Part shown: piece by piece, positions 33,197 to 48,099 of the stretch
Position numbering within the stretch: position 1 is the first letter of the stretch
How the letters are laid out: each line of letters opens with the position of its first letter
DNA from: Modestobacter sp. VKM Ac-2984
Lineage (GTDB): Bacteria; Actinomycetota; Actinomycetes; Mycobacteriales; Geodermatophilaceae
DNA length: 64,000 nucleotides
NCBI RefSeq assembly: GCF_026967985.1
Contig: NZ_JAPVBJ010000005.1
Location: forward strand, 206,564 to 270,563
Direction of reading: 5' to 3'
Made by a program: the position numbers and the translations under genes
Notes under the pieces: generated by a model
The model's input: only the letters and a program-made list of their open reading frames with translations
What the model was told of the DNA's origin: nothing
Databases searched by the model: none

Positions 33197-34219
33197 GTGA
33201 CCACCGGAACGTGGCCACTCTGGCCGAGTGCGCTGGCGCTCGTGGCCATGGCCGTGGTGATCGTGTTCGCCGGTGTCCGGCTGACCCGCGCCGCTGACGA
33301 GCTCGCCGACCGCACCGGTCTCGGGGACGCCGTCGGGGGTGCGCTCCTGCTCGGCGCCGTCACGTCGCTGCCGGGGAACGTCACCGTCCTCACCGGGGCC
33401 CTCGAGGGCGACGCCGGCTTCGCGCTGGCGAACCCGATCGGCGGCATCGCCCTGCAGACGGTCTGGCTGGCCGTCGCCGACCTCGTGTACCGCCGGGCCA
33501 ACCTCGAGCACGCGGCCGCGTCGCTGGAGAACGTGATGCAGTCGGTGATCCTCATGGCGATGCTGTCGCTGCCGGTGATCGCCTACTCCACGCCCCAGCT
33601 GACCCTCGGCTGGATCCACCCGGTGACGCTGCTCATCCCGCTCCTCTACGCCTACGGGCTCGTGCTGCTGCGCCGGATGCACAGCGACCCGATGTGGGTG
33701 CCCACCCACACGTCGGCGACCGCGGACGAGGATGAAGAGGAGGAGGGCTCCGACCGCTCGACCCGCCGGCTGTGGGCCACGCTCGCCGGGCTGGGACTGC
33801 TCGTCGGGGTGGCCGGCTGGATCGTCGGGCAGGCCGGCCTCGGCGTGGCGGCGGGCACCGGTCTGGAGGGCGGCATCATCGGGTTCACGCTGACCACGGC
33901 GGTCAGCTCGCTGCCCGAGCTCGTCGTGCTGGTCACGGCGGTGCGGATGGGGCAGCTGACCCTCGGGGTCGGCAACATCGTCGGGGGCAACGTCTTCGAC
34001 ATGCTGATGATCGCCGTCGCGGACATCGGCTACCTGGAAGGGCCGCTCTACCGGGCTGCCGGGTCGACCAGCCTGGTGCTGCTCGGCGGCACCATGCTGC
34101 TGATCGCCGTCCTCACCGCCGGGCTGGTGATGCGCGACCGGAAGGGCATCGGGTTCGAGGGCCTGCTGATCCCGGTCATCTACGTCGCCACGGTCGCCCT
34201 GGCGGTGATCAGCCGATGA
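33197..34219 (+). CDS. Ca2+/cation antiporter superfamily membrane protein
   Basis: A 340-residue protein with about ten membrane helices and two homologous halves. Each half has an alpha-repeat-like motif: GAVTSLPGNVTVLTGAL near residue 55 and TTAVSSLPELVVLVTAV near 235, the latter followed by GNIVGGNVFD. A glutamate-rich cytoplasmic loop (DEDEEEEGSD) lies between the halves. This is the layout of Na+/Ca2+ exchanger-like CaCA proteins. The first repeat has Asn where the usual acidic ion-binding residue is expected, so ion specificity is unclear. GTG start after GAGGAGG; it appears monocistronic. Confidence 0.85.
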   Translation: MTTGTWPLWPSALALVAMAVVIVFAGVRLTRAADELADRTGLGDAVGGALLLGAVTSLPGNVTVLTGALEGDAGFALANPIGGIALQTVWLAVADLVYRRANLEHAAASLENVMQSVILMAMLSLPVIAYSTPQLTLGWIHPVTLLIPLLYAYGLVLLRRMHSDPMWVPTHTSATADEDEEEEGSDRSTRRLWATLAGLGLLVGVAGWIVGQAGLGVAAGTGLEGGIIGFTLTTAVSSLPELVVLVTAVRMGQLTLGVGNIVGGNVFDMLMIAVADIGYLEGPLYRAAGSTSLVLLGGTMLLIAVLTAGLVMRDRKGIGFEGLLIPVIYVATVALAVISR

Positions 34220-34611: not shown

Positions 34612-35551
34612 GGGACACCTCCACGTCACCCAGACCTGCGTTGATGGTGATCTCGAACTCCGGCTCGGAGTCCCCGGACCAGTCGGCTGTGCCCGAGCCG
34701 GGGAAGAAGCCGGTCTCCACGCTGTCACCGAACAGGTCGGTCTCGCCGAGCCCCTGCACGACCTCCAGCCGCACGTCGGCGGAGAAGGGGACGATGACGT
34801 CGATGTCGCCGAGCCCGGAGTCGATCCGGGTGGTGATCGGGGAGTCCAGGTCCGCCAGCTCCTCCGCGTCGACGCCGCGCAGGTCCAGCAGCAGGTCACC
34901 GACCCCGTTCTCGTAGTCCGACTGCACCGCGGCCGCCGACACCGGGCGCCAGGTGCGGTCGCCCATCTCGCCGCTGGGGACCTCGACCGTCGAGGCGATC
35001 GCGAGCGCCACGGAGAGCACCAGGCCCAGCCCGATGAGGCCGCCCTTGGCGCCCCGGCCGATCCCGGTCAACGCACCGAACACCAGGCCGACGCCGACGA
35101 TCAGCAGCGCGCTGCCCAGGACACCGCGGGCGCCCAGGTCCACGGTGGTGAACTGGTCGAGCATGACCGCGATGCCGGCGATGATCAGCAGCGCCGCGAT
35201 CGTCACCCCGGGCACCGGGGAGCGTGGGCCGGTCCGGGCCTGCTCCGGAGCGCCGGGGTACCCGGGCGGCGCGGCGGGGGCGGCCGGCATGAGCAGCCAC
35301 AGCAGCACGTAGATGATCAGGCCGCTGCCGCCGGCGAGGGTGAGCGCGATGGCGCCCACCCGCCACAGCAGGGCGTCGACGCCGGTGTACTCGGCCAGGC
35401 CGCCGGCGACGCCGCCGATCACCTTGTCGGTGCGGCTGCGGCGCAGCGGCGGCCGGGCGACCGGGCCGGGTGGAGGAGGAGGCGGCGGCCAGGAGCCCGG
35501 CGGCTGCTCGGCCGCCGGGGGCGGGGCGGAGGGAGGGAGTGCTGAGGTCAT
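34604..35551 (-). CDS. PspC-domain protein with LiaF-like C-terminal domain
   Basis: A 315-residue membrane protein. A Pro-rich N-terminus (about 1-38) precedes a PspC domain (TDKVIGGVAGGLAEYTGVDALLWR to IIYVLLWLLMP), two or three further helices, and an extracytoplasmic beta-rich C-terminus. The C-terminus has repeated GLGD/VGDLLLDL strands, as in LiaF/DUF2154 (cell-wall-active antibiotic response) proteins. It probably senses or buffers envelope stress. It is divergent from a PspC-fused histidine kinase (35686), which suggests one stress-response module. Confidence 0.87.
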   Translation of the reverse strand: MTSALPPSAPPPAAEQPPGSWPPPPPPPGPVARPPLRRSRTDKVIGGVAGGLAEYTGVDALLWRVGAIALTLAGGSGLIIYVLLWLLMPAAPAAPPGYPGAPEQARTGPRSPVPGVTIAALLIIAGIAVMLDQFTTVDLGARGVLGSALLIVGVGLVFGALTGIGRGAKGGLIGLGLVLSVALAIASTVEVPSGEMGDRTWRPVSAAAVQSDYENGVGDLLLDLRGVDAEELADLDSPITTRIDSGLGDIDVIVPFSADVRLEVVQGLGETDLFGDSVETGFFPGSGTADWSGDSEPEFEITINAGLGDVEVSRG

Positions 35552-35685
35552 GCCACGAGCCTGCCGACTCCGGGCGCCCCGCGGTATCAGGGAACCCCCT
35601 GGACCGACCCTGATCCGGGCCGGCCGCCCTGCCTCCGGGTGATCACCGGTGTGCGGGGCGCGGCGGCGGTGACACCATCGACACC

Positions 35686-36924
35686 GTGACCACCAGCACC
35701 GAGCCGACGGCCGGGCACCCCGCCCCGTCCGCGGCCCGGTTCCCCGGTGACCGTCCGGCCCGGCCCCCGCTCGTGCGGCCGGCCACGGGGCGGCTGCTGG
35801 CCGGCGTGGTCGCCGGGACGGCCGCGCACCTGCGCCTGGACCCGCTGGTGGTCCGGTTCGTCGTGATCGGGCTGGCGTTCACCGGGGTCGGCGTCGTCGC
35901 CTATGCGCTGCTCTGGCTGACCATGCCGGTCGCCGACCCCTCCGGCGAGGGTGCCACCACGGCCGTGATCGGGGAGCGCCCCAGCCGGCGCCAGCTGATC
36001 CTGCTGGCCCTGCTGTCCTTCGTCGTCTTCGGGCTGGTCTCGCAGCTGCTCACCTTCGGCGGCTACGACGTCGTCCTGCCGCTGGTCCTCGCCGGGATCG
36101 GGCTGGCCGTGATCTGGCGGCAGACCGACACCGACGCCTCGCTCTCCCGCCGCAGCAACCGCTGGGGGCTGGCCGCCGGGGTCGTCGTCGGCGTCGTCGG
36201 CGTGGTGCTGCTGCTGGCCACCACCGGCCAGCTGGCCAACGCCCGCAACGGCTTCACCGCCACCGTGGTGATCCTGGTCGGCGTGGCGCTGGCGACCGCC
36301 CCGCTGTGGCGCCGGCTGCTGGACCAGCGCGCGACCGAGCGGGCCGCCCGGATCCGGTCGGAGGAGCGCGCCGCGGTCGCCGCCCACTTGCACGACTCGG
36401 TGCTGCAGACCCTCGCGTTGATCCAGCGGCACGCGGCCGACCCCACGGTGGTGGGCCGGCTGGCCCGCAGCCAGGAGCGGGAACTGCGGGCGTGGCTGTA
36501 CGAGCCGACCGTCGCCACCGGCGGCACCTGGGCCGGGCTGGTCGCCCGGCTGGTGGCCGAGGTGGAGGCCGACCACGCCGTCACCGTCGACCCGGTCGTC
36601 GTCGGGGACCTGCCCGTCGACGACGCGGTGGCCACCCTCGGTCAGGCCGCCCGGGAGGCGGTGGTCAACGCCGCGAAGCACTCCGGTGCACCGTCCGTCT
36701 CGCTGTACAGCGAGGTGACGCCGGGCGCGGTGACCGTGTTCGTCCGGGACCGCGGCACCGGGTTCGACCCGGCTGGCGTGCCGGGCGACCGGCGCGGGCT
36801 GCGCGACTCGGTGGTGGGACGGCTGACCCGACTGGGCGGCACGGCGACGGTGCGATCCGCACCGGGAGAGGGGACCGAGGTGGAGCTCTGCCTGCCGCGC
36901 GAGCGGACGGAGGCGCCGGCATGA
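35686..36924 (+). CDS. PspC-fused sensor histidine kinase
   Basis: A 412-residue membrane kinase. An N-terminal PspC domain (GRLLAGVVAGTAAHLRLDPLVVRF ...) and about five more helices precede a HisKA_3 dimerisation domain with phosphorylatable H236 in HLHDSVLQTL. A HATPase_c domain follows (N-box EAVVNAAKHSG, G-boxes DRGTGFDP and APGEGTEVEL). This architecture is common in actinobacteria and suggests that the PspC region replaces a separate sensor. It is coupled to the response regulator by a 4-nt overlap. GTG start. Confidence 0.9.
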   Translation: MTTSTEPTAGHPAPSAARFPGDRPARPPLVRPATGRLLAGVVAGTAAHLRLDPLVVRFVVIGLAFTGVGVVAYALLWLTMPVADPSGEGATTAVIGERPSRRQLILLALLSFVVFGLVSQLLTFGGYDVVLPLVLAGIGLAVIWRQTDTDASLSRRSNRWGLAAGVVVGVVGVVLLLATTGQLANARNGFTATVVILVGVALATAPLWRRLLDQRATERAARIRSEERAAVAAHLHDSVLQTLALIQRHAADPTVVGRLARSQERELRAWLYEPTVATGGTWAGLVARLVAEVEADHAVTVDPVVVGDLPVDDAVATLGQAAREAVVNAAKHSGAPSVSLYSEVTPGAVTVFVRDRGTGFDPAGVPGDRRGLRDSVVGRLTRLGGTATVRSAPGEGTEVELCLPRERTEAPA

Positions 36925-37592
36925 CGGCCGCGACGGGGCGCACCCGGGTCTTCCTGGTCGACGACCACGCGATGGTCCGCGCCGGGGTGCGCGCCGAGCT
37001 GGGCGAGGAGGTCGAGGTGGTCGGCGAGGCAGCCGACGTCCCGACCGCGGTGGCCGGCATCCGGGCCAGCACGCCGGACGTCGTCCTGCTCGACGTGCAC
37101 CTGCCCGGCGGCGGGGGCCACGCCGTCCTGGAGTCGCTGCGCGCCGAACTGCCCGCGACCCGCTGGCTGGCGCTGTCGGTCTCCGACGCCGCCGAGGACG
37201 TCATCGCCGTCATCCGGGCCGGGGCCCGGGGGTACGTCACCAAGACGATCTCCGGGGCGGACCTGCGGGACGCCGTCCGCCGGGTCGCCGAGGACGACGT
37301 CGTGTTCAGCCCGCGGCTGGCCGGGTTCGTGCTCGACGCCTTCTCCGCCGGCCCCGCCGCACCCGTGCCCGCCGACGACCCGGCCACCGACCCGGGCCTG
37401 GACCTGCTGTCCGCCCGCGAGCGGGAGGTGATGCAGCTGCTGGCCCGCGGCTACACCTACCGGGAGATCGGCGGGCGGCTGTTCATCTCGGTGAAGACGG
37501 TGGAGTCCCACGCCTCCAACGTGCTGCGCAAGCTGCAGCTGTCCAACCGCAACGAGCTCACCCGCTGGGCGGCCACCAACCGGCTGCTCTGA
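36921..37592 (+). CDS. NarL/LuxR-family response regulator
   Basis: Cognate regulator of the upstream kinase, 223 residues. The receiver domain is intact, with D14-D15, phosphoacceptor D58 in DVVLLDVHLPG, and the Lys in YVTKTIS. The C-terminal LuxR HTH (SAREREVMQLLARGYTYREIG, SVKTVESHASNVLRKL) is typical. Likely targets are the divergent PspC/LiaF-like operon and its own operon; a 7-bp inverted repeat in the divergent promoter region is a candidate site. Confidence 0.93.
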   Translation: MTAATGRTRVFLVDDHAMVRAGVRAELGEEVEVVGEAADVPTAVAGIRASTPDVVLLDVHLPGGGGHAVLESLRAELPATRWLALSVSDAAEDVIAVIRAGARGYVTKTISGADLRDAVRRVAEDDVVFSPRLAGFVLDAFSAGPAAPVPADDPATDPGLDLLSAREREVMQLLARGYTYREIGGRLFISVKTVESHASNVLRKLQLSNRNELTRWAATNRLL

Positions 37593-37594
37593 CG

Positions 37595-37645
37595 GAGGAC
37601 CACCTCCTCCCCGTGCCTCGCAGCCCGGGGGAGGAGGCGGTCCTC
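37595..37645. terminator. Bidirectional terminator between regulator and acetamidase
   Basis: Long imperfect stem (GAGGACCACCTCCTCCC pairing with the GGGAGGAGGCGGTCCTC side, about 15 nt loop) between convergent genes 2 bp after one stop codon and 2 bp before the other. Confidence 0.7.
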
Positions 37646-37647
37646 GG

Positions 37648-39018
37648 TCAGCAGAAGTGGCTCTTCGGGATCAGGCCGTGCACGCCGACGGTGCGGTCCA
37701 CCACCTGGGACACCTCGAAGTCCGCGGCCGCGGACAGGTAGGCGTAGGCGACCGCCCGGTCCATCCCCAGGTCGTTCTCCAGGAAGTCCAGCGCGTTGAC
37801 CACGGCCCGCCGGCTGGCGACGTCCAGGTCACTGCCCTGCCCGTTGCGGGAGCCGTCCGGGTCGGACAACCCGATCGGCACCCAGGCGTCCGGCGTCTCC
37901 CCGAAGGGGTACCGGAAGGCCACCGACGGTGCGTCGCCCGCGCCCGGACGGCAGACGGTGAGCCGGTAGGTGATCCGGAGCGACCCCTCCATCGCGGTCA
38001 GGGCCACCTCGCCGTTGCCCATCGACATGTGCGGGTCGCCGGTGGAGAACAACGCCCCCTCGGCGACCACCGGCACGTAGAAGGCAGAGCCGACGTTCAG
38101 GTGCTTGACGTCGATGTTGCCGCCGCCGAGGGTCGGCGGGATCGAGTTCACCAGCGGGTCGTTGAGCTGCGGGGCGTCTCCGACGGTGGCGACCGCCATC
38201 AGCCCGGCGAACGGGTCCAGCGGCCAGCTGACCTCGCCGCTGGTGCCCACCGGGAGGTGCGCGGTGGGCACCCCCCGACGACCCCGGCGGACCGGGGTGA
38301 AGACCGAGACGTTGCCGTACTGCAGCGGGTCTCCCGTGGCCCGGCCGTCCGGCGTCCGTGGCATCGCCTCGGCGGGGCTGATCCCGTTGTCGGGGGCGAA
38401 CTGGACGGCGAGCGCCCCCTTGCCGTGTCGGCTGGAGATGACGCCGTAGGGCACCCGCGGCATCGCCGAGAGGGGCTCGATCTTGAGCACGTCACCGGGA
38501 CGGGCGCCCTCGACGTGCACCGGACCGGTGACGACGTGTGGCCCGTCGGCGTCGAAGTCGCGCGGGTGCCGGCTGTAGTCGGCGGCGATGGCGACGGCGT
38601 CGTCCAGCACCTGCTCGCGGGGCACGCCCTGACCGGCGAACCACCCCGCCGGATCACGACCCTGGTCCTCGAGCAGCCCCTCGTGGCTCACCGTGTCGAT
38701 GGTGATCGTCTGCCCGGAGCGCATCCGGACGACCGGTGCGTCGGTGGTGCGCGGCAGGTAGCCCCAGAGCACCTCGTCGGGCCGTGAGGGGAGGTACACG
38801 TCCCCGTCGATGGGACCGGTGCCGGGCTGCAGGACCTGCCCGGGCAGCCGGGTCCGGCGCCCACCGGTGGCCGCGGCCGGCGATGCGGTGGCGACACCGG
38901 TCGCCATGACGACGCCGGTGGCCAGGGCGGCCTGGACGAAGGCGCGGCGGCCGAGCCCGCGCTCCAGCAGTGCAGCGGCAGTCGCCGGCTCCGGACCCTC
39001 GTGCGGTGCGTCGGTCAT
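37648..39018 (-). CDS. Tat-exported acetamidase/formamidase family protein
   Basis: A 456-residue FmdA/AmdA-family protein that would hydrolyse short amides to ammonia and a carboxylate. The family core includes VVRMRSGQTITIDT, GPHVVTGPVHVEGARPGD, SMGNGEVALTAMEGSL and AYAYLSAAADFEVSQVVD. The N-terminus has a twin-arginine-like signal (LGRRAFVQAAL followed by a hydrophobic Ala/Val stretch and an AxA-type site near residue 50). This is unusual, since most members are cytoplasmic. ATG start after GGGAGAAC. Confidence 0.88.
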   Translation of the reverse strand: MTDAPHEGPEPATAAALLERGLGRRAFVQAALATGVVMATGVATASPAAATGGRRTRLPGQVLQPGTGPIDGDVYLPSRPDEVLWGYLPRTTDAPVVRMRSGQTITIDTVSHEGLLEDQGRDPAGWFAGQGVPREQVLDDAVAIAADYSRHPRDFDADGPHVVTGPVHVEGARPGDVLKIEPLSAMPRVPYGVISSRHGKGALAVQFAPDNGISPAEAMPRTPDGRATGDPLQYGNVSVFTPVRRGRRGVPTAHLPVGTSGEVSWPLDPFAGLMAVATVGDAPQLNDPLVNSIPPTLGGGNIDVKHLNVGSAFYVPVVAEGALFSTGDPHMSMGNGEVALTAMEGSLRITYRLTVCRPGAGDAPSVAFRYPFGETPDAWVPIGLSDPDGSRNGQGSDLDVASRRAVVNALDFLENDLGMDRAVAYAYLSAAADFEVSQVVDRTVGVHGLIPKSHFC

Positions 39019-39129
39019 CGTGTTCTCCCGGTGCTGGTGAGCGGACCGGGAGAGGTCTACGTGAGCTGTGTTACGGCTGTGCGGCGGGAGGACCGCAGCG
39101 TTCCGGGCCGGTGTCGGGACGAATGTCCA

Positions 39130-39867
39130 TCACGCTGTGTACACGACCTGGAACGCTTCGGCGAGGTGCCCGTCGGGCAGGCCGTGGGTGCGCGCGTTCT
39201 GCCGCATCCAGCCGGTCAGGAACTCCTCCATCTGCCCCTCGGGCCAGTGCGAGACCTGGCTGACGTGCGAGCGCAGCGCGGCGAGCTTGTGGTCCAGCAC
39301 GTCGGTCACGTCCACGGCGTGGTCCGAGCGGGGGCCGCCGCCCAGCCACACCTCCGACACCGTCCAGGCCTCCAGGGCCTCGTCGGCCAGCAGCTCGGGG
39401 AAGGCGAAGGGGTTGCGGGCGTCGGGGTAGACCGCCCGCAGCGTGGACTCGCCCACGGTCATGTGGTCGGGGTGGCTGGCGCCGATCCGCTCCCAGAACC
39501 GCTCGGGCGAGCTGGTCAGGACGCGCTGCGGGCGCACCTGCCGGATCACCCGGCTGATGTCCCGGCGCAGGTCCAGGGTCGGCTCCAGCCGCCCGTCCGG
39601 GTACCCGAGGAAGCGGACGTCGGTGACCCCGACCGCGGCTGCGGCGGCACGCTGCTCGGCCCGGCGCAGCGGCCCCATCTCCTCGCGCGGGGTCTCGTCG
39701 AAGCCACCGGCGTCCCCGTCGGTGACGATGCAGTAGGTGACCTCGGTGCCCGCCGCCGTCCAGCCGGCCACCGTGCCCGAGCTGCCGAAGTCGACGTCGT
39801 CGGGGTGGGCGAGCACGCACAGGGCGCGCTCGACGAACGGGGCAGGGGCCTCGGGCAGCGGCATCAC
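39130..39867 (-). CDS. PIG-L family deacetylase (LmbE/MshB-like)
   Basis: Zinc-dependent N-deacetylase, 245 residues. The motif LAHPDDVDFGSSG gives the zinc ligands H21 and D24 and the base D23. A later SHPDHMTVGE supplies the third ligand. The family includes MshB and Mca of mycothiol metabolism and GlcNAc-lipid deacetylases; the end of this protein does not settle which. GTG 39867 lies 7 nt after TAGGCT on the minus strand, so it is probably leaderless. Its promoter overlaps the stop of the upstream ECF sigma gene. Confidence 0.9.
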   Translation of the reverse strand: MMPLPEAPAPFVERALCVLAHPDDVDFGSSGTVAGWTAAGTEVTYCIVTDGDAGGFDETPREEMGPLRRAEQRAAAAAVGVTDVRFLGYPDGRLEPTLDLRRDISRVIRQVRPQRVLTSSPERFWERIGASHPDHMTVGESTLRAVYPDARNPFAFPELLADEALEAWTVSEVWLGGGPRSDHAVDVTDVLDHKLAALRSHVSQVSHWPEGQMEEFLTGWMRQNARTHGLPDGHLAEAFQVVYTA

Positions 39868-39874
39868 GCGGGCG

Positions 39875-39880
39875 AGCCTA
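39875..39880 (-). promoter_or_regulatory. -10 element of the PIG-L deacetylase (leaderless type)
   Basis: TAGGCT on the minus strand, 7 nt before GTG 39867. It overlaps the TGA of the ECF41 gene (39878-39880). Confidence 0.55.
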
Positions 39881-40792
39881 GGTCGCGGCGCCCGGGCGTC
39901 CGGCCAGGCCCTGCAGCTTGTCGGGGTTGCGGACGACCAGCACCTGCTCGATGAGCCCGTCGGCGACGACGAGCGACATGGTCAGGAACGGCTCGGCGCC
40001 GCTCCAGCCCACGATCGCCGGAGTGCCGTTGACCTCCACGACCTCGATCCGCAGGTCGGGCACGTCCGTGGCCTGCGCGGCGATCCCGACCAGGAACCGG
40101 CTGACCTTCTCCGCGCCGGAGATCGGCCGCAGCGCCGCCTTCGCCTTGCCGCCGCCGTCGGTGACCAGCACGACGTCGGGGGCCAGCGCCGCCAGCAGCG
40201 CGTCGACGTCACCGCCGGCGCAGGCCGCCAGGAAGCGGTCGGTCACCTCCCGCTGGGCACGGCGGTCGGTGTCGAACCGGGGACGGCGGGCCTGCACGTG
40301 CTCCCGTGCCCGGTGCGCCATCTGCCGGACGGCGGACTCGCTGCGGCCCAGCGCGGCCGCGACCTCGGCCACCGGCAGGGCGAAGACCTCGCGGAGCACG
40401 AAGACCGCACGCTCGGCGGGGGAGAGGGTCTCCAGCACGACCAGCAGCGCCAGGGAGACCGCCTCCCCGGTCTCGGCCACCTCGCTCGGGTCGGCCGGGC
40501 CGGGTGCCGCGGCGACCCGGTCTCCCCCGGTGAGCAGCGGCTCGGGCAGCCACGGCCCGACGTAGCTCTCCCGCCGGACGCGGGCGGAGCGGAGCCGGTC
40601 GAGCGCCAGCCGGGTGGTGACCTGCACCAGGTAGGCCCGCGGGTCGGTGACGTCGGTCCGGTCGGCCGCCGACCAGCGCAGCCATGCGTCCTGCACGGCG
40701 TCCTCGGCGTCGGCCACGCTGCCCAGCAGCTGGTAGGCGACGGAGAACAGCAGTCGGCGGTGGTCGGCGAACAGGTCGGCGGCGGCGTTCAC
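39878..40792 (-). CDS. ECF41-type RNA polymerase sigma factor (SigJ-like)
   Basis: A 304-residue ECF sigma factor. The sigma-2 region (VAYQLLGSVADAEDAVQDAWLRW) and sigma-4 region (LSPAERAVFVLREVFALPVAEVAAALG) are followed by a SnoaL/NTF2-like C-terminal domain of about 110 residues. This extra domain defines the ECF41/SigJ group, where it modulates activity instead of a separate anti-sigma factor. It overlaps the upstream carboxymuconolactone decarboxylase-like gene by 4 nt (GTGA), the classic ECF41 partner arrangement. An ECF41-like promoter precedes the partner gene. Confidence 0.92.
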   Translation of the reverse strand: MNAAADLFADHRRLLFSVAYQLLGSVADAEDAVQDAWLRWSAADRTDVTDPRAYLVQVTTRLALDRLRSARVRRESYVGPWLPEPLLTGGDRVAAAPGPADPSEVAETGEAVSLALLVVLETLSPAERAVFVLREVFALPVAEVAAALGRSESAVRQMAHRAREHVQARRPRFDTDRRAQREVTDRFLAACAGGDVDALLAALAPDVVLVTDGGGKAKAALRPISGAEKVSRFLVGIAAQATDVPDLRIEVVEVNGTPAIVGWSGAEPFLTMSLVVADGLIEQVLVVRNPDKLQGLAGRPGAAT

Positions 40793-41352
40793 CGGCCCGG
40801 CACCTCGCACCGTTCCCGGAAGCCCTGGCTGGTCAGCCCGAGGGCGGCGTTGGTCCGCGAGCGGGAGTTCTCCACGGAGATCATCATCGTCAGCTCCACC
40901 AGCTGGGCGTCGTCCAGATCGCGCCGCAGGTCCGCGACCATCTCGTCGGTCACCTGCGGTGGGGTGGCCGTCATGGCCTCCGCGTAGCCCATCACCCGTC
41001 GTTCCAGGTCGCTGTACACCTGGCTGTCCCGCCACCGCGGGACGTCGCGCAGCTTGGCCGGCTCCACCCCGCGCCGGCTGCTCTCCCAGAAGCCGAAGTC
41101 CAGGCACCAGGAACAGCCGATGGTGGCCGCCGAGGACATCACCGCCAGCGCCTTGAGCGTCGGGTCCAGCCGGCGCCACCGGGCCACGCTCTTCTCGTGG
41201 CGGACCTGGCTGAGCAGCACGCGCGGGTGGTGCGCCATCGCCGCGCCCGGGTCGAGCACCGCCCCGTAGGTGCGGCGGGACCACCATTCCGCCACCCGGG
41301 TCAGCGGGGTGCGGGGCGGGTCGAGCGGGATGCGGGCGGTGTCGGTGGTCAT
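40789..41352 (-). CDS. Carboxymuconolactone decarboxylase/AhpD-like protein, ECF41 partner
   Basis: A 187-residue protein of the CMD/AhpD-like fold. The active-site pair C80-x-x-C83 is in IGCSWCLDFG, a redox motif in AhpD-type members. These proteins (COE group) are the usual genomic partners and regulatory targets of ECF41 sigma factors. The ATG 41352 start follows GGAGAGGAC; ATG 41370 is an alternative. It shares an operon with the sigma factor and lies behind a TGTCACG-N17-CGTC promoter. The reaction in vivo is unknown. Confidence 0.9.
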   Translation of the reverse strand: MTTDTARIPLDPPRTPLTRVAEWWSRRTYGAVLDPGAAMAHHPRVLLSQVRHEKSVARWRRLDPTLKALAVMSSAATIGCSWCLDFGFWESSRRGVEPAKLRDVPRWRDSQVYSDLERRVMGYAEAMTATPPQVTDEMVADLRRDLDDAQLVELTMMISVENSRSRTNAALGLTSQGFRERCEVPGR

Positions 41353-41387
41353 GTCCGTCGTCCTCTCCATCGGCTGGTGCCCATGGA

Positions 41388-41415
41388 GACGGGACGGCGC
41401 CCGCAGACGTGACAT
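41388..41415 (-). promoter_or_regulatory. Candidate ECF41-dependent promoter
   Basis: On the minus strand TGTCACG (41409-41415), a 17-nt spacer, then CGTC (41388-41391), about 36 nt before ATG 41352. This is close to the published ECF41 consensus of a TGTCACA-type -35 and CGTC -10, implying autoregulation of the COE-sigma operon. Confidence 0.65.
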
Positions 41416-41455
41416 CCGCCCTCGACCGCACCGCGGATGGGCGAGGAGGACGGCG

Positions 41456-41743
41456 TCAGAGCCGGCCGCGGCCCTGGCGCAGCAGCATCATCCCGAGGGT
41501 CGAGCCGTCCGGGCCGAGGGCGTCGCGGAAGCGGGAGAGCACCCGCTGCTCGCGGGAGAGCGACAGCCGCATGCCACCGCTCGCGGTGCGCAGCGAGCCG
41601 ATCTCCTGGGAGATGGCCAGCCGGCGCCGCACGAGCGCGATGATCTCGGCGTCGCAGGCGTCGATCTCACCGCGCAGCGCGTCGATCCGCGCCGCGGTCT
41701 CGGCGGCCGAGCTGTCGGTGGTGGGGGAGAGGGCGGTGCTCAT
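41456..41743 (-). CDS. aroQ: Chorismate mutase, AroQ-delta type
   Basis: Converts chorismate to prephenate, the branch to phenylalanine and tyrosine. The 95-residue helical protein has DALRGEIDACDAEIIALVRRR, the helix with RTASGGMRLSLSREQRVLSRF, and the C-terminus LGMMLLRQGRGRL. It matches actinobacterial AroQ-delta enzymes such as the mycobacterial Rv0948c, but ends at the Leu of the GRGRL motif. In mycobacteria and corynebacteria this class needs complex formation with DAHP synthase for full activity. The start is the ATG after GGAGGAA. A candidate transcription attenuator lies upstream (41788-41898). Confidence 0.93.
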   Translation of the reverse strand: MSTALSPTTDSSAAETAARIDALRGEIDACDAEIIALVRRRLAISQEIGSLRTASGGMRLSLSREQRVLSRFRDALGPDGSTLGMMLLRQGRGRL

Positions 41744-41787
41744 CGGTTCCTCCGGGGTGCAGGAGGCCGTCGGGACCCCAGAGACGG

Positions 41788-41819
41788 AAAAACGCCCCGG
41801 GGCCGTGGGCCCGGGGCGT
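41788..41819 (-). terminator. Rho-independent terminator upstream of aroQ (attenuator candidate)
   Basis: On the minus strand a 10-bp GC stem (41810-41819 with 41792-41801, 8-nt loop) is followed directly by a run of T (41792-41788). T-tracts are absent from the other hairpins in this window. It lies between a short leader ORF and aroQ, not after any gene on that strand. Confidence 0.75.
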
Positions 41820-41835
41820 CGTGTGCGGTGGCGGT

Positions 41836-41898
41836 TCAGCCAGCCGAGACGGACACCGGAACCCGGTGGCCGTAGGAAAACTCTCGGGGGCTGAGCAC
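41836..41898 (-). CDS. Candidate leader peptide of aroQ (Phe/Tyr codons)
   Basis: A 20-codon ORF on the minus strand, GTG 41898 to TGA 41836. A CACACT -10-like hexamer (41906-41911) lies 7 nt before the GTG, fitting a leaderless start. The middle reads REFSYGHR; Phe is encoded by TTT, rare at this GC content, and Tyr by TAC. Two codons later a 6-bp hairpin begins (CACCGG-GTT-CCGGTG, 41854-41868), and the T-tract terminator follows the stop by 16 nt. This geometry suggests ribosome-mediated attenuation by Phe/Tyr supply; only one codon of each is a weakness. Confidence 0.5.
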   Translation of the reverse strand: MLSPREFSYGHRVPVSVSAG

Positions 41899-41905
41899 GT
41901 CCAGG

Positions 41906-41911
41906 AGTGTG
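41906..41911 (-). promoter_or_regulatory. -10-like element of the aroQ leader
   Basis: CACACT on the minus strand, 7 nt before the leader GTG at 41898; weaker than the TANNNT elements elsewhere. Confidence 0.35.
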
Positions 41912-42000
41912 CCACAGCCCACGGTCCTGGGCCATCGCCGATCACGCCGCCGACCACCCCGCCGACACGCGGGCCGCCCGGAGTCGTCGGTGTCCCGGCT

Positions 42001-42006
42001 TAGAGT
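42001..42006 (+). promoter_or_regulatory. -10 element of pcrA
   Basis: TAGAGT followed by 9 nt and the ATG at 42016, implying a leaderless or nearly leaderless transcript. Confidence 0.45.
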
Positions 42007-42015
42007 GGCGGGGTC

Positions 42016-44307
42016 ATGAGCAGCCCCCAGCACACCCTCCCCGGCACCGCCGCGCTCCCCCGGCACACCTCCGGCCAGACCGGCCGCGAGCTGGACCGGA
42101 TGCTCGCCGGCCTGAACGGCCCGCAGCGCGAGGCCACGGTGCACGAGGGCAGTCCGCTGCTCATCGTCGCCGGCGCCGGCTCCGGCAAGACGCGCGTGCT
42201 CACCCACCGCATCGCCTACCTGCTCGGCGCCCGCGGCGTGCAGCCCGGCGAGATCATGGCGATCACCTTCACCAACAAGGCCGCCGGGGAGATGAAGGAG
42301 CGCGTCGCCGCGCTGGTCGGTCCGCGGGCCCGGGCCATGTGGGTGTCCACGTTCCACTCCATGTGCGTGCGCATCCTGCGGGCCGAGGCCGGCAAGCTGG
42401 GCATGAAGAGCTCGTTCACCATCTACGACCAGGGCGACTCGGTCCGGCTGATGACGATGGTCGCCCGCGACCTGGACCTCGACGCCAAGCGGTATCCCGG
42501 CCGCAGCCTGGCCAACCAGGTGTCGAACCTGAAGAACGAGCTGGTCGACGAGGAGTCCTACGCCCCGCAGACGGCACCGGAGAAGGTGCTGAAGGAGGCG
42601 TACACCCTCTACCAGCGGCGGCTGCGCGAGGCGCACGCCATGGACTTCGACGACCTGATCATGACCACGGTGCACCTGCTCCAGGCCTTCCCCGACGTGG
42701 CCGAGCACTACCGCCGCCGGTTCCGGCACGTGCTGGTCGACGAGTACCAGGACACCAACCACGCCCAGTACGTGCTGGTCCGCGAACTGGTCGGCACGCA
42801 CGGTGGCCCGGTGCCGCCGGCCGAGCTGTGCGTCGTCGGCGACGCCGACCAGTCGATCTACGCCTTCCGCGGCGCGACGATCCGCAACATCGACGAGTTC
42901 GAACGCGACTACCCCGACGCCACCACCATCGTGCTGGAGCAGAACTACCGCTCCACCCAGCGCATCCTGCGCGCGGCCAACCAGGTGATCGCCCGAAACA
43001 CCGCCCGTCGGCCGAAGAACCTGTGGTCCGACGCCGGTGACGGCGAGCTGATCGAGGGCTACGTCGCCGACAACGAGCACGACGAGGCCGCCTGGGTCGC
43101 CGAGCAGATCGACGCGCTCACCGACGAGGGCACGGCCCGGCCGGCCGACATCGCGATCTTCTACCGCACCAACAACGCCTCCCGTGTCTTCGAGGAGGTG
43201 TTCATCCGGGTCGGCATGCCCTACAAGGTCGTCGGCGGGGTGCGCTTCTACGAGCGCCGGGAGGTCCGGGACGCGGTCGCCTACCTCAAGGTGATCGCCA
43301 ACCCGGCCGACGTGGTCAGCCTGCGCCGGGTGCTCAACACCCCCAAGCGGGGCATCGGCGAGCGGGCCGAGGCGTGCGTCGAGCGGTTCGCCGACCGCGA
43401 GCGGATCCCGTTCGCCAGCGCGCTGCGCCGGTGCTCGGAGGTCGGTGACCTGGCCACCCGCTCGCTCAAGGCGATCCAGGAGTTCGTCGCCCTGCTGGAG
43501 GAGTTCGAGCAGCTGGTCGAGACCGGTTCGGGCCCGGCGGCCCTGCTGGAGAGCGTGTTGGACCGCACCGGCTACCTGGCCGAGCTCGAGGCCAGCACCG
43601 ACCCGCAGGACGAGGGGCGGGTCGACAACCTCAACGAGCTGATCTCGGTGGCCGCCGAGTTCGAGGCGGCGAACCCCGGGGGCACGGTCACCGAGTTCCT
43701 CGAGCAGGTCTCGCTGGTCGCCGACGCCGACCAGATCCCGGTCAGCGGCGACGAGGCCGGCGTGGTGACCTTGATGACCCTGCACACCGCCAAGGGCCTG
43801 GAGTTCCCGGTGGTCTTCCTCACCGGCCTGGAGGACGGCGTCTTCCCGCACCTGCGGGCCCTCGGTGACCCGCGGGAGCTGGAGGAGGAGCGGCGGCTGG
43901 CCTACGTGGGCATCACCCGGGCGCGGCAGCGGCTGTTCCTGTCCCGCGCCACCGTGCGCACCAACTGGGGGCAGCCGGCCTACAACCCGCCGTCCCGGTT
44001 CCTCGACGAGCTGCCGACCGACGCCGTCCACTGGGAGCGGCTGGAGCCGGCCCCCAGCAAGCCGATGAGCTCGGCGCAGGCGCGGGTCGCCTCGACGGGC
44101 CTGTCCACCGGGGGGCTCCGCGGCGGTGCCGGCAACCGGGCAGTGATCAGCGTCGACGTCGGCGACCGGGTCAGCCACGACGCCTTCGGGCTCGGCACGG
44201 TGGTCGAGATCAACGGCGCCGGCGACAAGGCGCAGGCCACGGTCGACTTCGGCTCCGGTGGCACCAAGCGCCTCGTGCTCCGCTACGCCCCGCTGGTCAA
44301 GCTCTGA
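42016..44307 (+). CDS. pcrA: ATP-dependent DNA helicase PcrA/UvrD
   Basis: Superfamily 1A 3'-5' helicase for nucleotide excision repair, replication restart and plasmid replication. The 763-residue protein has motif I AGAGSGKT (residues 52-59), motif Ia ITFTNKAAGEM, motif II LVDEYQDTN, motif III GDADQSIYAFRGA, motif IV EQNYRST, motif V LMTLHTAKGLEF and motif VI AYVGITRARQRL. The C-terminal Tudor-like domain (VGDRVSHDAFGLGTVVEI) contacts RNA polymerase in UvrD/PcrA. The 3' end overlaps the convergent GNAT gene by 11 bp. Confidence 0.97.
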   Translation: MSSPQHTLPGTAALPRHTSGQTGRELDRMLAGLNGPQREATVHEGSPLLIVAGAGSGKTRVLTHRIAYLLGARGVQPGEIMAITFTNKAAGEMKERVAALVGPRARAMWVSTFHSMCVRILRAEAGKLGMKSSFTIYDQGDSVRLMTMVARDLDLDAKRYPGRSLANQVSNLKNELVDEESYAPQTAPEKVLKEAYTLYQRRLREAHAMDFDDLIMTTVHLLQAFPDVAEHYRRRFRHVLVDEYQDTNHAQYVLVRELVGTHGGPVPPAELCVVGDADQSIYAFRGATIRNIDEFERDYPDATTIVLEQNYRSTQRILRAANQVIARNTARRPKNLWSDAGDGELIEGYVADNEHDEAAWVAEQIDALTDEGTARPADIAIFYRTNNASRVFEEVFIRVGMPYKVVGGVRFYERREVRDAVAYLKVIANPADVVSLRRVLNTPKRGIGERAEACVERFADRERIPFASALRRCSEVGDLATRSLKAIQEFVALLEEFEQLVETGSGPAALLESVLDRTGYLAELEASTDPQDEGRVDNLNELISVAAEFEAANPGGTVTEFLEQVSLVADADQIPVSGDEAGVVTLMTLHTAKGLEFPVVFLTGLEDGVFPHLRALGDPRELEEERRLAYVGITRARQRLFLSRATVRTNWGQPAYNPPSRFLDELPTDAVHWERLEPAPSKPMSSAQARVASTGLSTGGLRGGAGNRAVISVDVGDRVSHDAFGLGTVVEINGAGDKAQATVDFGSGGTKRLVLRYAPLVKL

Positions 44308-44833
44308 GCTGGTCGGTGGCGAGCTCGTAGACCAGCTCGAGACCGTCCTCGTCGTCCTCCTGCTCACCGACCAGCACGAAGCCGTAGGGCAGCGCGAGGG
44401 CCTGGGACGCGGTGTTGGTCGGGCTGATCGTCACCCGGACGGTGCGGACCGCGGGCTCCGCCCGTGCGCGGCTGAGCAACTGTTCGAAGGCGGCCCGGGC
44501 GTAGCCCCGCCGGCGCCATGCGGGTGCCACGGCGTACCCGATCTCCACCATGCCGTCGCCGTCGGGTGAGCCGTGGAAACCTGCCCGTCCGACTGCCGCC
44601 CGACGGGTGGGGTCCCAGATGACCCGGGTGATCCAGCCGGCGTCCCCGGGCTGGGTGGTCAACTGTGCGGCGCGCCGGCGCCACACGGACGCCCAGTCCG
44701 GGCCGGCGAAGTACCCGGTCAGCGGCACGGGGCTGAGTTCGTCGGCCGTGGCGAGATCACCGGCGGCCAGGGCGGTGAACGCCGCAGCCGAGAGCTGGAC
44801 CAGCCGCACGGACGGCGGGTCGGCGGAGGTCAC
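44297..44833 (-). CDS. GNAT family N-acetyltransferase
   Basis: A 178-residue acetyltransferase. The acetyl-CoA motif is VAPAWRRRGYARAAFEQLL (R-R-x-G-Y/x-A form), and TNTASQALALPYGFVLVGEQ covers the C-terminal beta-bulge region. It resembles the RimJ/GNAT_3 group that acetylates ribosomal proteins or small amines; the substrate is not predictable. It starts at GTG 44833, 30 bp from the M23 gene stop on the same strand. Confidence 0.85.
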   Translation of the reverse strand: MTSADPPSVRLVQLSAAAFTALAAGDLATADELSPVPLTGYFAGPDWASVWRRRAAQLTTQPGDAGWITRVIWDPTRRAAVGRAGFHGSPDGDGMVEIGYAVAPAWRRRGYARAAFEQLLSRARAEPAVRTVRVTISPTNTASQALALPYGFVLVGEQEDDEDGLELVYELATDQLRA

Positions 44834-44863
44834 CGGGCCAGTCTGCCGGGGCCCCGACCTGGG

Positions 44864-45739
44864 TCAGCCGACGGAGACGCCCCGCTCGGCGAGCCAGGCC
44901 TCCGGGTCGATCGGCTTGCCGTTCATCCCACCGCGGTGGATCTCGAAGTGCAGGTGCGGCCCGGTCGACTGGCCCTGGTTGCCGACCTTGGCGATCTGCT
45001 GACCCGCCGAGACGACGTCGCCGGCGGCCACGTCGTAGTAGCGCATGTGCCCGTAGATCTGGACGTTCCCGTCGGCGTCCTGGATGTAGACGGCGTTGCC
45101 GTAGCCGGACGCGGGGCCGGCGCGCAGCACGACCCCGTCCGCCGCGGCGAAGATCGGCGTGCCGAGCGGGGCGGCGAGGTCGAGGCCCCAGTGCATGGTG
45201 CCCCAGCGCTGGCAGAAGCACGTGGTCATCCGGCCGGCGGTGGGCACGACGAAGTCCGGCTCGCGGGCGGCCCGGGATGCGGCGATCTCGCTCAGCCGGG
45301 CCTGGGCCTCCACCTGGCTGATCTCCCCGCGCACGCCCTCCACGTCCACGCCGCCGGCGAAGCTGGCATCGGTCAGGCCCAGCCCGTAGTCCACCCCGGA
45401 GGCCACCGGGGCGGGTGTCGGCTCGCCGAGGCCGCCCATCAGCGAGGTCGCCAGGGCGCCGACGACGGCGACGGCGAGCAGCAGCGGTGCCCGGCGCCGC
45501 GGCGGGCGGGGGACGCGGCGCTGCGGGGCCGCGCCCGCTGAGCTCGGTGGGGTCTCCGCGGGTCCGGCCGGGGTGCCGGTGGCGGTGCCGGGGTCGGTCT
45601 CCTGGGTGGCCGCCCACTCGCGGTCCCAGTCCCAGTCGTCGTCGAACTCGTCGCTCCAGTCGCCGGACGTGCCGGTGAGGGCAGCGGCAGGGACGACCTC
45701 GGACTGCGTGCGGCCGACGAGTTCTCGCAGACGGGACAA
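44864..45739 (-). CDS. M23 family metallopeptidase (LytM-type)
   Basis: Cell-wall endopeptidase. The C-terminal LytM domain (about 165-290) has the zinc motif HWGLDLAAPLGTP (H-x3-D) and the catalytic HxH in TGPHLHFEIH, so it should be active. A basic Pro/Arg stretch and one membrane helix (APLLLAVAVVGALATSLMGG) precede it, so the enzyme faces outside with a short acidic cytoplasmic N-terminus. The start is uncertain: TTG 45739 after GGGAAGG gives 291 residues and MSRLRELVG-like wording. A longer frame to 45898 would run through two hairpins. It is commonly located near sucC in actinobacteria. Confidence 0.85.
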   Translation of the reverse strand: MSRLRELVGRTQSEVVPAAALTGTSGDWSDEFDDDWDWDREWAATQETDPGTATGTPAGPAETPPSSAGAAPQRRVPRPPRRRAPLLLAVAVVGALATSLMGGLGEPTPAPVASGVDYGLGLTDASFAGGVDVEGVRGEISQVEAQARLSEIAASRAAREPDFVVPTAGRMTTCFCQRWGTMHWGLDLAAPLGTPIFAAADGVVLRAGPASGYGNAVYIQDADGNVQIYGHMRYYDVAAGDVVSAGQQIAKVGNQGQSTGPHLHFEIHRGGMNGKPIDPEAWLAERGVSVG

Positions 45740-45786
45740 CGGGCACCTTCCCGGGCAGCACGCCGCGGGCAGCCGGGCGTCGTCGG

Positions 45787-45864
45787 GCACCAGCCGGCCG
45801 CAGGGAGCGGCTGGTGCTGGCACTGCGGTTTCGATGACGCCGACGGAGATCCCATCGGTGTCAT
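45787..45864 (-). promoter_or_regulatory. Structured leader upstream of the M23 peptidase
   Basis: Two stem-loops: a perfect 10-bp stem 45787-45796/45808-45817 with an 11-nt loop, and a 10-bp stem 45834-45843/45855-45864 with one G-T pair on one strand. They would lie in the 5' UTR if TTG 45739 is the start. No c-di-AMP riboswitch core could be recognised. Confidence 0.4.
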
Positions 45865-45971
45865 TCGCGACGCTACGGAGGGGGCCAGGAGCCACCAACG
45901 ACCTGACTGCGCGTGTCGTGGAGCAGTGCTATGAGTGACGACACCCGCAGTTGGCAGGTGTCGACATGTGG

Positions 45972-46880
45972 TCAGGCAGCGGCGACGGGGATGTCGTCGG
46001 TCGCGGTCCGCAGGCCGGCCAGGGTCGCGGCGACCTCGTCCACCACACCCCGGTGGATGGGCAGCGACATGTGGCCCACGCCCGGCACGAGGACGTTGCG
46101 GGCCTGGAGGTCGGGGTGGTCGCAGCGCCCGGCCGACGACGGCACGACCATCTGGTCGAGGTCGCTGTAGACCGCCGTCACCCGGGTCCGGCACTCCGGC
46201 GCCGGCGCGGCGAGCTCCTGGAACAACGCCGACCCCGGTCGGAGCTGGCGCACCAGGCGGGTGGGCAGGACGTGCGCCCACCGGCTCCCACCGTGCGGCG
46301 TCCCGAGGGTGACCAGCGACTCCACCCGCGCATCACCGCCCAGGCGCTGCACGAGGTACCGGGCGACGAGCCCGCCGAGGCTGTGGCCCACCACGTGCAC
46401 CCGGTCGTGACCGGTGGCCCGGCAGACCTCCTCGATGTGCTGGCCCAGCGCCTCGGCGGCGCTCTCCACGTCGCGCAGCAACGGGCTGTAGTTCCACGTG
46501 CAGACCTGGGCGAAGCCGCGTCGTCGGAGACCCCGGCGCATCACCGTGAACACCGACCGGTTGTCGACCAGCCCGTGGACCAGGACCACGGGGATGCGGG
46601 CGGCCAGGGGGTCGGCGGCGAACAGGGCGCGGACGGCGGCCGGCTGCGGGCGGGGGCGGTAGCTCCCGTCGGGGCGCAACCGCTCGGTGCGGGTGCCGAG
46701 TGGGTAGAGCAGCGTGTGTGCCCCCACCCAGGCCAGCTCGGTGAGGCTGCCGGTGATCGCGGCCGGGGAGACCAGCCGGCGGAGGCCGGTGCGCCGGGCG
46801 TTCGCCGGCGGGACGTCGCTGCCTGCCGCGGAGTGCGGGGCGTGCCAGGCTGGTACGGAGGGCAGAACGGGTACCTGCAC
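45972..46880 (-). CDS. Esterase/lipase (PGAP1-like alpha/beta hydrolase)
   Basis: A 302-residue lipase-type hydrolase. IPVVLVHGLVDNRSVF is the oxyanion strand, VHVVGHSLGGLVARYLVQ the nucleophile elbow, TLGTPHGGSRWA a typical triacylglycerol-lipase segment, and the His is in VPGVGHMSLPIHR. YSDLDQMVVP supplies the acid. There is no clear signal peptide. Start GTG 46880 follows GGAGGGAGAA. Homologues often lie near icmB and sucCD in actinobacteria. Lipid substrate inferred only from family. Confidence 0.88.
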   Translation of the reverse strand: MQVPVLPSVPAWHAPHSAAGSDVPPANARRTGLRRLVSPAAITGSLTELAWVGAHTLLYPLGTRTERLRPDGSYRPRPQPAAVRALFAADPLAARIPVVLVHGLVDNRSVFTVMRRGLRRRGFAQVCTWNYSPLLRDVESAAEALGQHIEEVCRATGHDRVHVVGHSLGGLVARYLVQRLGGDARVESLVTLGTPHGGSRWAHVLPTRLVRQLRPGSALFQELAAPAPECRTRVTAVYSDLDQMVVPSSAGRCDHPDLQARNVLVPGVGHMSLPIHRGVVDEVAATLAGLRTATDDIPVAAA

Positions 46881-47043
46881 GCCGTTCTCCCTCCCGTCCG
46901 TCCCGGCACCGCGCCGGGCGGCGCGCCATGGACAGTGGTGTGCTCGGTTCAGGGGACCGTAATGCCCCGTTGTGTTGAAAGTCATACAACCGACACACGA
47001 CACGCGTCCGTGGCCAGACAGCCTGATCCCGAGGAGACCCCCA

Positions 47044-48099
47044 GTGCCCGCCCGTGACCGCGCCCCCGACCGCACCGGCACGCCAGGCCGGCCCGGTGCG
47101 GCGCGCAGCCCCGCGGCCCGTCGCACGGGAGGTCTCCGGGCCGGTGCGACCTCGCCGTCCGCCGCCGCCTCCGACCGGCTCGTCGTCGGGCAGGTCCCGG
47201 TGCTGGCCCGGGCCTGCGGGTTGCTCCTCCTGCTCGCCGGGCTGGCCGGCGCAGCGGCGGCCTTCCCGACCTACCTGGTGGTCGGGGGGACGGCGGTGAG
47301 CCCGGTGCAGGGCGCCCTGGACGCCGTCGTGGCCCTCGTCGCACCGGTCGCCTCGGTCGCGGTCGGTGCCGGGCTGCTCCTCGGGCGCGTGCCGCGGTTC
47401 GGCCTGGCCTATGCAGCGGTCACCGGCGCGCTGGCGGTCGGCCGGCTCCTCATCGAGCTCCATCGTGGACAGGGATCGACCACCCGTCCGGCGGTCGAGG
47501 TGCTGGCCGGCGAGCTGGTGCTCACCAGCTCGGTGGAGGTCGGCGCCGGCTGGGTGCTCGGCGTCGTCGCCCTGGGCCTCGCCGTCCTCGCCGGGCTGAC
47601 CGCCTTCGCCGCCTGGGGTCGCACGGTGATGGAGGACGGCGGCGGTCTGGACCCGCTGCGTCCGGTGCTCGCCGGGGTAGCGGTGCTCCTCGGCGTGGCG
47701 GCGGTGCTCGCCCTCGCGCTGCCGGCGGCCGACGTCCCGGACGAGGTGGTGACCGACCCGCGGAGCGGGCTGGAGGTCGTCGTGGACCAGGAGGGGCCGC
47801 AGGCGCTGCTGGAGCGACCTGGGCTGGCCCTGCTGGGCGGGTTGCTGCTCGCGGGTGCGCTCGTGCTCTCCGCCGTCGTCGCACCGTCGCTGCGGCCCCG
47901 GCTCGCCGCCGTCGGCGGGCTGCTCGCCGTCGCCGTCTTCCTGCTGGACAGCGCCCTGGGCGGGCTCCGCGGCGCGTGGTCCAGCCCGGACCTGGAGTGG
48001 ACCGTCCCGGGCATCGGTCTGCTGGTGCTGGCGCTCGGGGCGGTGGGGCTCACGCTCCTGGCCTGGCGCTGGCGGCGCGGTTCGCCCGCTCAGGGGTGA
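47044..48099 (+). CDS. Polytopic membrane protein of unknown function
   Basis: A 351-residue protein. About 55 basic, Pro/Ala-rich residues are followed by roughly eight hydrophobic segments. One extracytoplasmic stretch ([25 protein letters not shown]) divides helices 5 and 6. No recognised motif. Start GTG 47044 follows GAGGAGACC. It lies between the lipase (divergent) and icmB, which has its own promoter. I do not recognise the family. Confidence 0.78.

Follow-up and report, generated by a model that had tools for sequence, protein, structure and literature searches.

Whether the short region ahead of aroQ in this genome is a ribosome-mediated transcription attenuator, through which the chorismate mutase gene would sense charged tRNA-Phe and tRNA-Tyr, was the question raised by this locus, and the analysis makes such an attenuator very probable. 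The window, by which we mean the whole stretch of DNA analysed, comprises 64,000 nt of Modestobacter sp. VKM Ac-2984 (Geodermatophilaceae; contig NZ_JAPVBJ010000005.1, assembly GCF_026967985.1). The leader region occupies the minus strand between aroQ (41743-41456) and a divergent gene that starts at 42016 on the plus strand and that we take, from its own sequence, to be pcrA. The aroQ product was identified as chorismate mutase with NCBIfam NF005894 (103.6 bits; cut-off 73) and Pfam PF01817 (40 bits; cut-off 27). The following elements were located:

41906..41911, minus strand: -10-like box CACACT, 7 nt ahead of the leader start (sequence)
41836..41898, minus strand: leader ORF MLSPREFSYGHRVPVSVSAG, GTG start at 41898, 20 codons plus TGA, predicted to be leaderless
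41878..41880, minus strand: Phe control codon TTT, a rare codon
41872..41874, minus strand: Tyr control codon TAC, at the base of P1
41849..41873, minus strand: hairpin P1, arms 41873-41863 and 41859-41849, loop GTT (covariation, folds)
41852..41857, minus strand: GGTGTC in the P1 3' arm, predicted antiterminator partner of GACGCC (41820-41815)
41788..41820, minus strand: intrinsic terminator GACGCCCCGGGCCCACGGCCCCGGGGCG, then TTTTT (41792-41788)
41747..41753, minus strand: Shine-Dalgarno sequence GGAGGAA of aroQ (sequence)
41456..41743, minus strand: aroQ, chorismate mutase, 95 aa, ATG at 41743 (NCBIfam and Pfam)

A first-pass annotation of the same DNA had reported the -10 box, the GTG-started ORF, a hairpin, the terminator, GGAGGAA and the aroQ ATG, and all were found where it had placed them. 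Two details were revised: the Phe and Tyr codons, described as adjacent, are separated by one Ser codon (order F-S-Y), and the hairpin, described as 6 bp long and starting two codons later, is a 10-bp stem with one mismatch (ACGG.CACCGG/CCGGTG.CCGT) that begins at the Tyr codon itself. The remark that TTT is rare here was borne out, given that it accounts for 1 of the 318 Phe codons (317 TTC) in the 43 CDS-like ORFs of the window, which were selected by composition and not by annotation. The terminator had also been called the only one with a T-tract in the window, and indeed, apart from its TTTTT, neither strand of the 64 kb contains a run of five or more T. A generic promoter and terminator scan of 35000-48000, which accepts short loops and unbroken stems only, returned 0 sites. 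Folding of the 177-nt leader gave a z-score of -2.9, with one of 200 shuffles equally stable. When the genome itself was searched with the pattern of the leader core, an exact match was obtained at one site, the leader, and matches with up to three mismatches were no commoner than those of the reversed control.

In the proposed mechanism, transcription would start at the leader GTG, as suggested by its spacing of 7 nt past the -10 box, so that ribosomes would bind directly at the 5' end, with no Shine-Dalgarno sequence involved. When Phe and Tyr are abundant, the ribosome would reach the stop codon and occupy the P1 3' arm, whereupon formation of the terminator would halt transcription ahead of aroQ. 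Without translation, P1 would fold alone, which would likewise leave the terminator free. Were Phe- or Tyr-tRNA uncharged, translation would halt with TTT or TAC in the A site, and the footprint of the stalled ribosome would cover the P1 5' arm, the 10 nt that follow TAC. The freed P1 3' arm would then pair with the terminator 5' arm (GGUGUC with GACGCC in the window), and this would preclude the terminator and let transcription continue into aroQ.

Conservation of the leader was assessed upstream of chorismate mutase genes in other genomes. An aroQ match was found in 58 of the 59 genomes searched, including the genome under study, and the leader was present in all 30 loci L001-L030. It was likewise found in 19 of 19 named actinobacterial loci (L031-L049; hairpin unscored), which include Modestobacter, Geodermatophilus obscurus DSM 43162, Blastococcus, two Streptomyces and one Mycobacterium MAG; some of these are the same genomes as numbered loci, and the count covers 19 of 29, with L050-L059, from other phyla or distant, left out. 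All chorismate mutase matches outside the class Actinomycetes were weaker than E=1e-8.

A joint leader and hairpin criterion was then formulated, after the sequences had been seen, and comprised a -10-like site that precedes the start by 5-8 nt, an ORF of 8-40 codons with two aromatic codons within three, and a hairpin of at least 8 bp that begins between 1 nt upstream and 6 nt downstream of the first base of the second aromatic codon, G-T pairs and at most two mismatches being allowed. It was passed by 74 of 96 chorismate mutase upstream regions versus 0 of 1920 dinucleotide-preserving shuffles, although, as the relatives' sequences are not independent, this and the other shuffle and swap counts reported here are no probabilities. 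None of the 96 reverse complements passed. L078 was given a wider upstream stretch because its gene start is misplaced, and G039, the second matches of G046 and G151, both matches of G089, and G079 were left out of the locus set (E>=9e-6 for those of G151, G089 and G079). The 22 misses comprise regions in which a leader is visible yet the script fails (L072, L076, L079, L109, L110 and L128), two that are too short upstream (L112 and L132), one doubtful case (L077), second copies (L126 and L127), more distant chorismate mutases (L129-L131 and L133-L136), and four genomes of family f8 from which the leader is absent (L075, L089, L090 and L095); f8, f30 and f31 are arbitrary family labels of the genome set. 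L075 and L089 retain a short ORF after a -10-like site, without the aromatic cluster. Applied to 750 overlapping segments of the window, the criterion was passed by three, of which one is the aroQ leader and two, overlapping, contain an unrelated Trp-rich short ORF at 33228 on the plus strand (MRWRSWPWPW), probably by chance.

For further comparison, 78 leaders with at least two aromatic residues were chosen by hand, named loci excluded. NANNNT lies 6 or 7 nt ahead of the start in 76 of the 78, which is the spacing of a leaderless transcript, and leader lengths range from 17 to 32 residues. Examples from relatives are MLATVSFFYGHRDPVSVTAG, MLDKRRFFYGYRSAVPVV (f8), MTRRSYEFFYGYRSPATV, MLTHPTFLFTYGDRPTGCHGRAA (f31) and MESSRTSRPGALLPPFYGDRARSPLHR (f30). 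An F-x-Y-G-x-R core recurs in many families, and the parts flanking it differ in sequence. What is conserved before chorismate mutase is an ORF, predicted to be translated, with codons for Phe and Tyr, as expected of an attenuator that reads the end products of the pathway. The alignment proposed in the first-pass annotation, which was to look for the small ORF, its Phe/Tyr codons and both hairpins in related genomes, came out in its favour for the ORF, its Phe and Tyr codons and P1, all kept across the family and in most of the class members examined. For the second hairpin the outcome was mixed, as the terminator is conserved in most relatives and no clear T-tract terminator was found in family f30 (L109, L110, L111, L114-L116, L124 and L125). 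Members of f30 have a longer leader that ends in FYG and the hairpin, and control may be exerted there at another step.

The secondary structure was analysed in an alignment, A1, of 41 leaders. Thirteen of the 78 had been omitted before, and 11 near duplicates, nine sequences of family f31 and four divergent rows were dropped from the remaining 65 references. P1 and the terminator pair in 90.9% of the cells of A1, and changes on both sides affect 10 pairs and 46 cells, versus 5.6 and 13.7 in shuffles, which reached the observed numbers in 1/500 and 0/500 cases, respectively; slid versions gave at most five double-changed pairs and nine cells. RNAalifold, run on A1 with no further input, recovered core pairs of both hairpins. 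In 76 of 78 leaders, no more than 4 nt separate the opening of the P1 stem from base 1 of the last aromatic codon, which places the stem where a ribosome stalled at the control codons would disrupt it. The terminator combines a GC stem with TTTTT in the window, its stem covaries in A1, and it is predicted to end transcription. Apart from these, a small hairpin, P2, lies around the leader stop codon (e.g. L005, L071 and L081) in 35 of 78 leaders versus 726 of 3900 shuffled ones; it is suggestive, and weak in the window itself.

Genomes were searched with R1, a model built from A1. At E<=5.1e-10, matches were obtained in 85 of 97 genomes, and in 31 of the 36 newly drawn, previously unused ones (G173-G208). 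Chorismate mutase adjoins all 20 of the matches that were fetched as loci. Sixteen weaker matches were also fetched, of which five precede a DAHP synthase gene and two lie at aroQ (L171 and L172). The other nine (L160, L162 and L164-L170) were set aside, as by eye they resemble ends of ordinary genes or tRNA regions.

The weaker matches revealed that the same layout occurs, in other families, before genes of type I-beta DAHP synthase (341-403 aa, with both NF006421 and TIGR01361 above cut-off). This enzyme is patchily distributed, being found in 40 of 150 genomes of the order, and 30 of the 40 matches were fetched as loci. Twelve of the 30 possess a leaderless-type leader with clustered aromatic codons, with a hairpin in 11 of the 12, and 18 have no such leader. 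Leaderless-type Phe/Trp/Tyr leaders before type I-beta DAHP synthase are L157, L158, L159, L161, L163, L175-L181, L190, L194, L198, L201 and L202, exemplified by MRFWYGYFRPPGADQVAERVPR and MQQRFYFWYGYRPGSPRRLVALH, and those that were folded have a hairpin and a GC terminator. They retain the layout and alter the aromatic set, mostly by addition of Trp.

Codon content follows this division. Trp is present in 2 of the 78 chorismate mutase leaders, whose aromatic content is partly selected by the way they were chosen, versus 12 of 14 DAHP synthase leaders, among which L159 is close to L175; it also occurs in the chorismate mutase leaders of two named Streptomyces that do not belong to the 78 (L048 and L049). 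DAHP synthase supplies all three of Phe, Tyr and Trp and chorismate mutase just the first two, so the codons for the most part match the products. The window's leader has only one Phe and one Tyr codon, which the first-pass annotation had named as its weak point. The count stands, and the objection has lost some of its force, because the single Phe codon is the rarest one and many relatives' leaders read FFY, FYY or FYFY. The Phe codon is TTT in 33 of the 34 leaders of the family, and this rare codon may sharpen the sensitivity of the Phe step.

The antiterminator was examined by folding, covariation and arm swapping. When the P1 5' arm was masked, the P1 3' arm and the 5' arm of the terminator shared five or more pairs in 62 of 65 folds, and in the window the predicted pairing joins GGUGUC (41857-41852) to GACGCC (41820-41815). 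In register 27-32/71-76, 85.0% of cells pair (35-58% when slid) and the covariation score exceeds that of all 500 shuffles; the double-changed pairs, at 2 versus 1.6 in shuffles, are no better, and slid versions reach up to 3 of them and, in cells, up to 8, equal to the observed number. In the register considered first there was little covariation, with two double-changed pairs versus 2.3 and a score that 15 of 500 shuffles reached. The arms of each leader's own P1 and terminator outpaired permuted arms, which matched them in 0 of 2000 permutations of 43 sequences, for which the script mislocated the terminator arms of L099 and L104, and in 5 of 10000 permutations of 16 representatives. This advantage is clearest where the terminator arm has drifted (L069, L074, L082, L083, L085 and L093). 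No gain was seen in duplex energy over shuffled 3' arms (mean z -0.06; 3 of 65 below -2), and in the arm swap 12 of 15 foreign arms pair better with the window's own sequence. From the folds and swap tests we take an antiterminator to be likely, its signal being weak in the window's own sequence.

Weak antiterminator thermodynamics in the window are what would be expected if the T-tract hairpin were a plain terminator after a short leaderless transcript, with aroQ expressed by partial readthrough or from a promoter of its own and no sensing by ribosomes. We regard this as very improbable. It leaves unexplained the conserved Phe/Tyr codons, the rare TTT, the position of P1 at the Tyr codon and the Trp codons of the DAHP synthase leaders. 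A separate promoter also finds no counterpart in the spacer between the terminator and the aroQ ATG, which contains no -10-like NANNNT.

The F-x-Y-G-x-R core, found in so many families, could alternatively belong to a conserved micropeptide (FYGYR/FYGHR-like) that has its own function, the hairpins being incidental. Its probability is slightly lower still. The sequence on either side of the core varies, as does the leader length given above, and the conserved residues are largely those whose codons build the P1 stem. The variable ones covary with their partners: at columns 16/30 of A1, GHR leaders pair with C-G and GYR leaders with U-A or U-G. As the third base of Gly and the first base of His/Tyr follow their pairing partners, the peptide core is largely what P1 leaves. 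Moreover, the DAHP synthase leaders switch the aromatic set with the layout unchanged. A riboswitch or T-box-like RNA that senses the amino acid or tRNA directly and free of translation, as two conserved hairpins before an amino acid gene might suggest, is very improbable, because no Rfam 15 model matched at its gathering score across the 64 kb (in the leader region, four unrelated matches far below that score were obtained at E<=10) and the columns conserved in A1 belong for the most part to the codons, P1 and the terminator.

Classical attenuation, on the other hand, explains each of the conserved parts, namely the leaderless start, the control codons, P1 at these codons and the terminator. 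The first-pass annotation had arrived at ribosome-mediated attenuation from the one sequence, and its reading is supported here by observations stronger than its author could see. Beyond this locus, we lean towards a class-wide aromatic attenuator of the Actinomycetes, that is, one leaderless design with P1 welded to the control codons, which would precede chorismate mutase (Phe and Tyr) and, in several families, type I-beta DAHP synthase (Phe, Trp and Tyr). The codons would be matched to the end products of each enzyme, the near-forbidden UUU would act as a tuned Phe sensor, and pathway entry and branch point would be coordinated without a protein regulator.

Ribosome-mediated attenuation is a known kind of control; what would be new is the chorismate mutase target, the wide range and a second matching target, DAHP synthase. 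The nearest described case is the aroR-aroF attenuator of Corynebacterium glutamicum, reportedly characterised by Neshat et al. in 2014. In the passages cited here, its leader has Phe-Tyr-Phe codons before aroF and mediates Phe-responsive ribosome-mediated attenuation, with Tyr reported to be without effect (PMC11802643, PMC4046766). Compared by description with these passages, it resembles the aroQ leader as an actinobacterial leader with Phe/Tyr codons and an aromatic pathway gene downstream, and differs from it in that aroF encodes DAHP synthase, whereas the aroQ leader serves chorismate mutase in much of the class.

The pheA (pheL) and trp leaders of Escherichia coli likewise combine end-product codons, competing hairpins and a terminator ahead of the gene. 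The pheL leader has a Shine-Dalgarno sequence and is rich in Phe codons. The aroQ leader, compared with it by description, is predicted to be leaderless, has few control codons and has P1 abutting them. As stated in the passage cited, E. coli pheA also encodes a chorismate mutase (PMC11802643). Eight leader peptides are listed for Streptomyces lividans (trpE, trpS, leuA, leuS, ilvBHC and others; PMC8079986, Table 4). Like the aroQ leader, these are short ORFs with hairpins and most are described there as leaderless; unlike it, none of the eight serves chorismate mutase or is listed as Phe/Tyr-sensing (PMC8079986). The ilvB1 attenuator of Mycobacterium tuberculosis, as presented in the portion cited, shares a uORF with control codons, an antiterminator and a U-tract terminator, and differs in responding to branched-chain amino acids and in serving another gene (PMC13236596). 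The survey of Actinobacteria by Seliverstov et al. (2005) states, in the part cited, that there were no conserved RNA structures before phenylalanine and tyrosine operons (PMC1262725). A chorismate mutase attenuator in Actinobacteria was not among the full-text matches listed from freely available papers.

If the leader works as proposed, attenuation would govern the aromatic branch point across much of the class Actinomycetes, with the expected difference in control codons between chorismate mutase and DAHP synthase. The aroQ leaders would also offer, as a natural experiment, a way to see how small a number of control codons is enough and which synonymous codon will do. The attenuation model makes predictions that can be tested in Streptomyces, and it is relevant to strain engineering because aromatic flux feeds many actinomycete products.

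Class II DAHP synthase was found in 61 genomes of the order, and none of the 30 loci inspected has the leader. Nor was one seen by eye within 420 nt of the genes for class II DAHP synthase and prephenate dehydratase in the genome under study. These two genes themselves (L173 and L174) look leaderless, with TACCCT a few nt before GTG/ATG. In several families, the genes for type I-beta and class II DAHP synthase are neighbours, lying about 0.1-5 kb apart in opposite orientation (G053:C92, G046:C1, G195:C25, G203:C1, G210:C7, G225:C40, G042:C401 and G055:C55).
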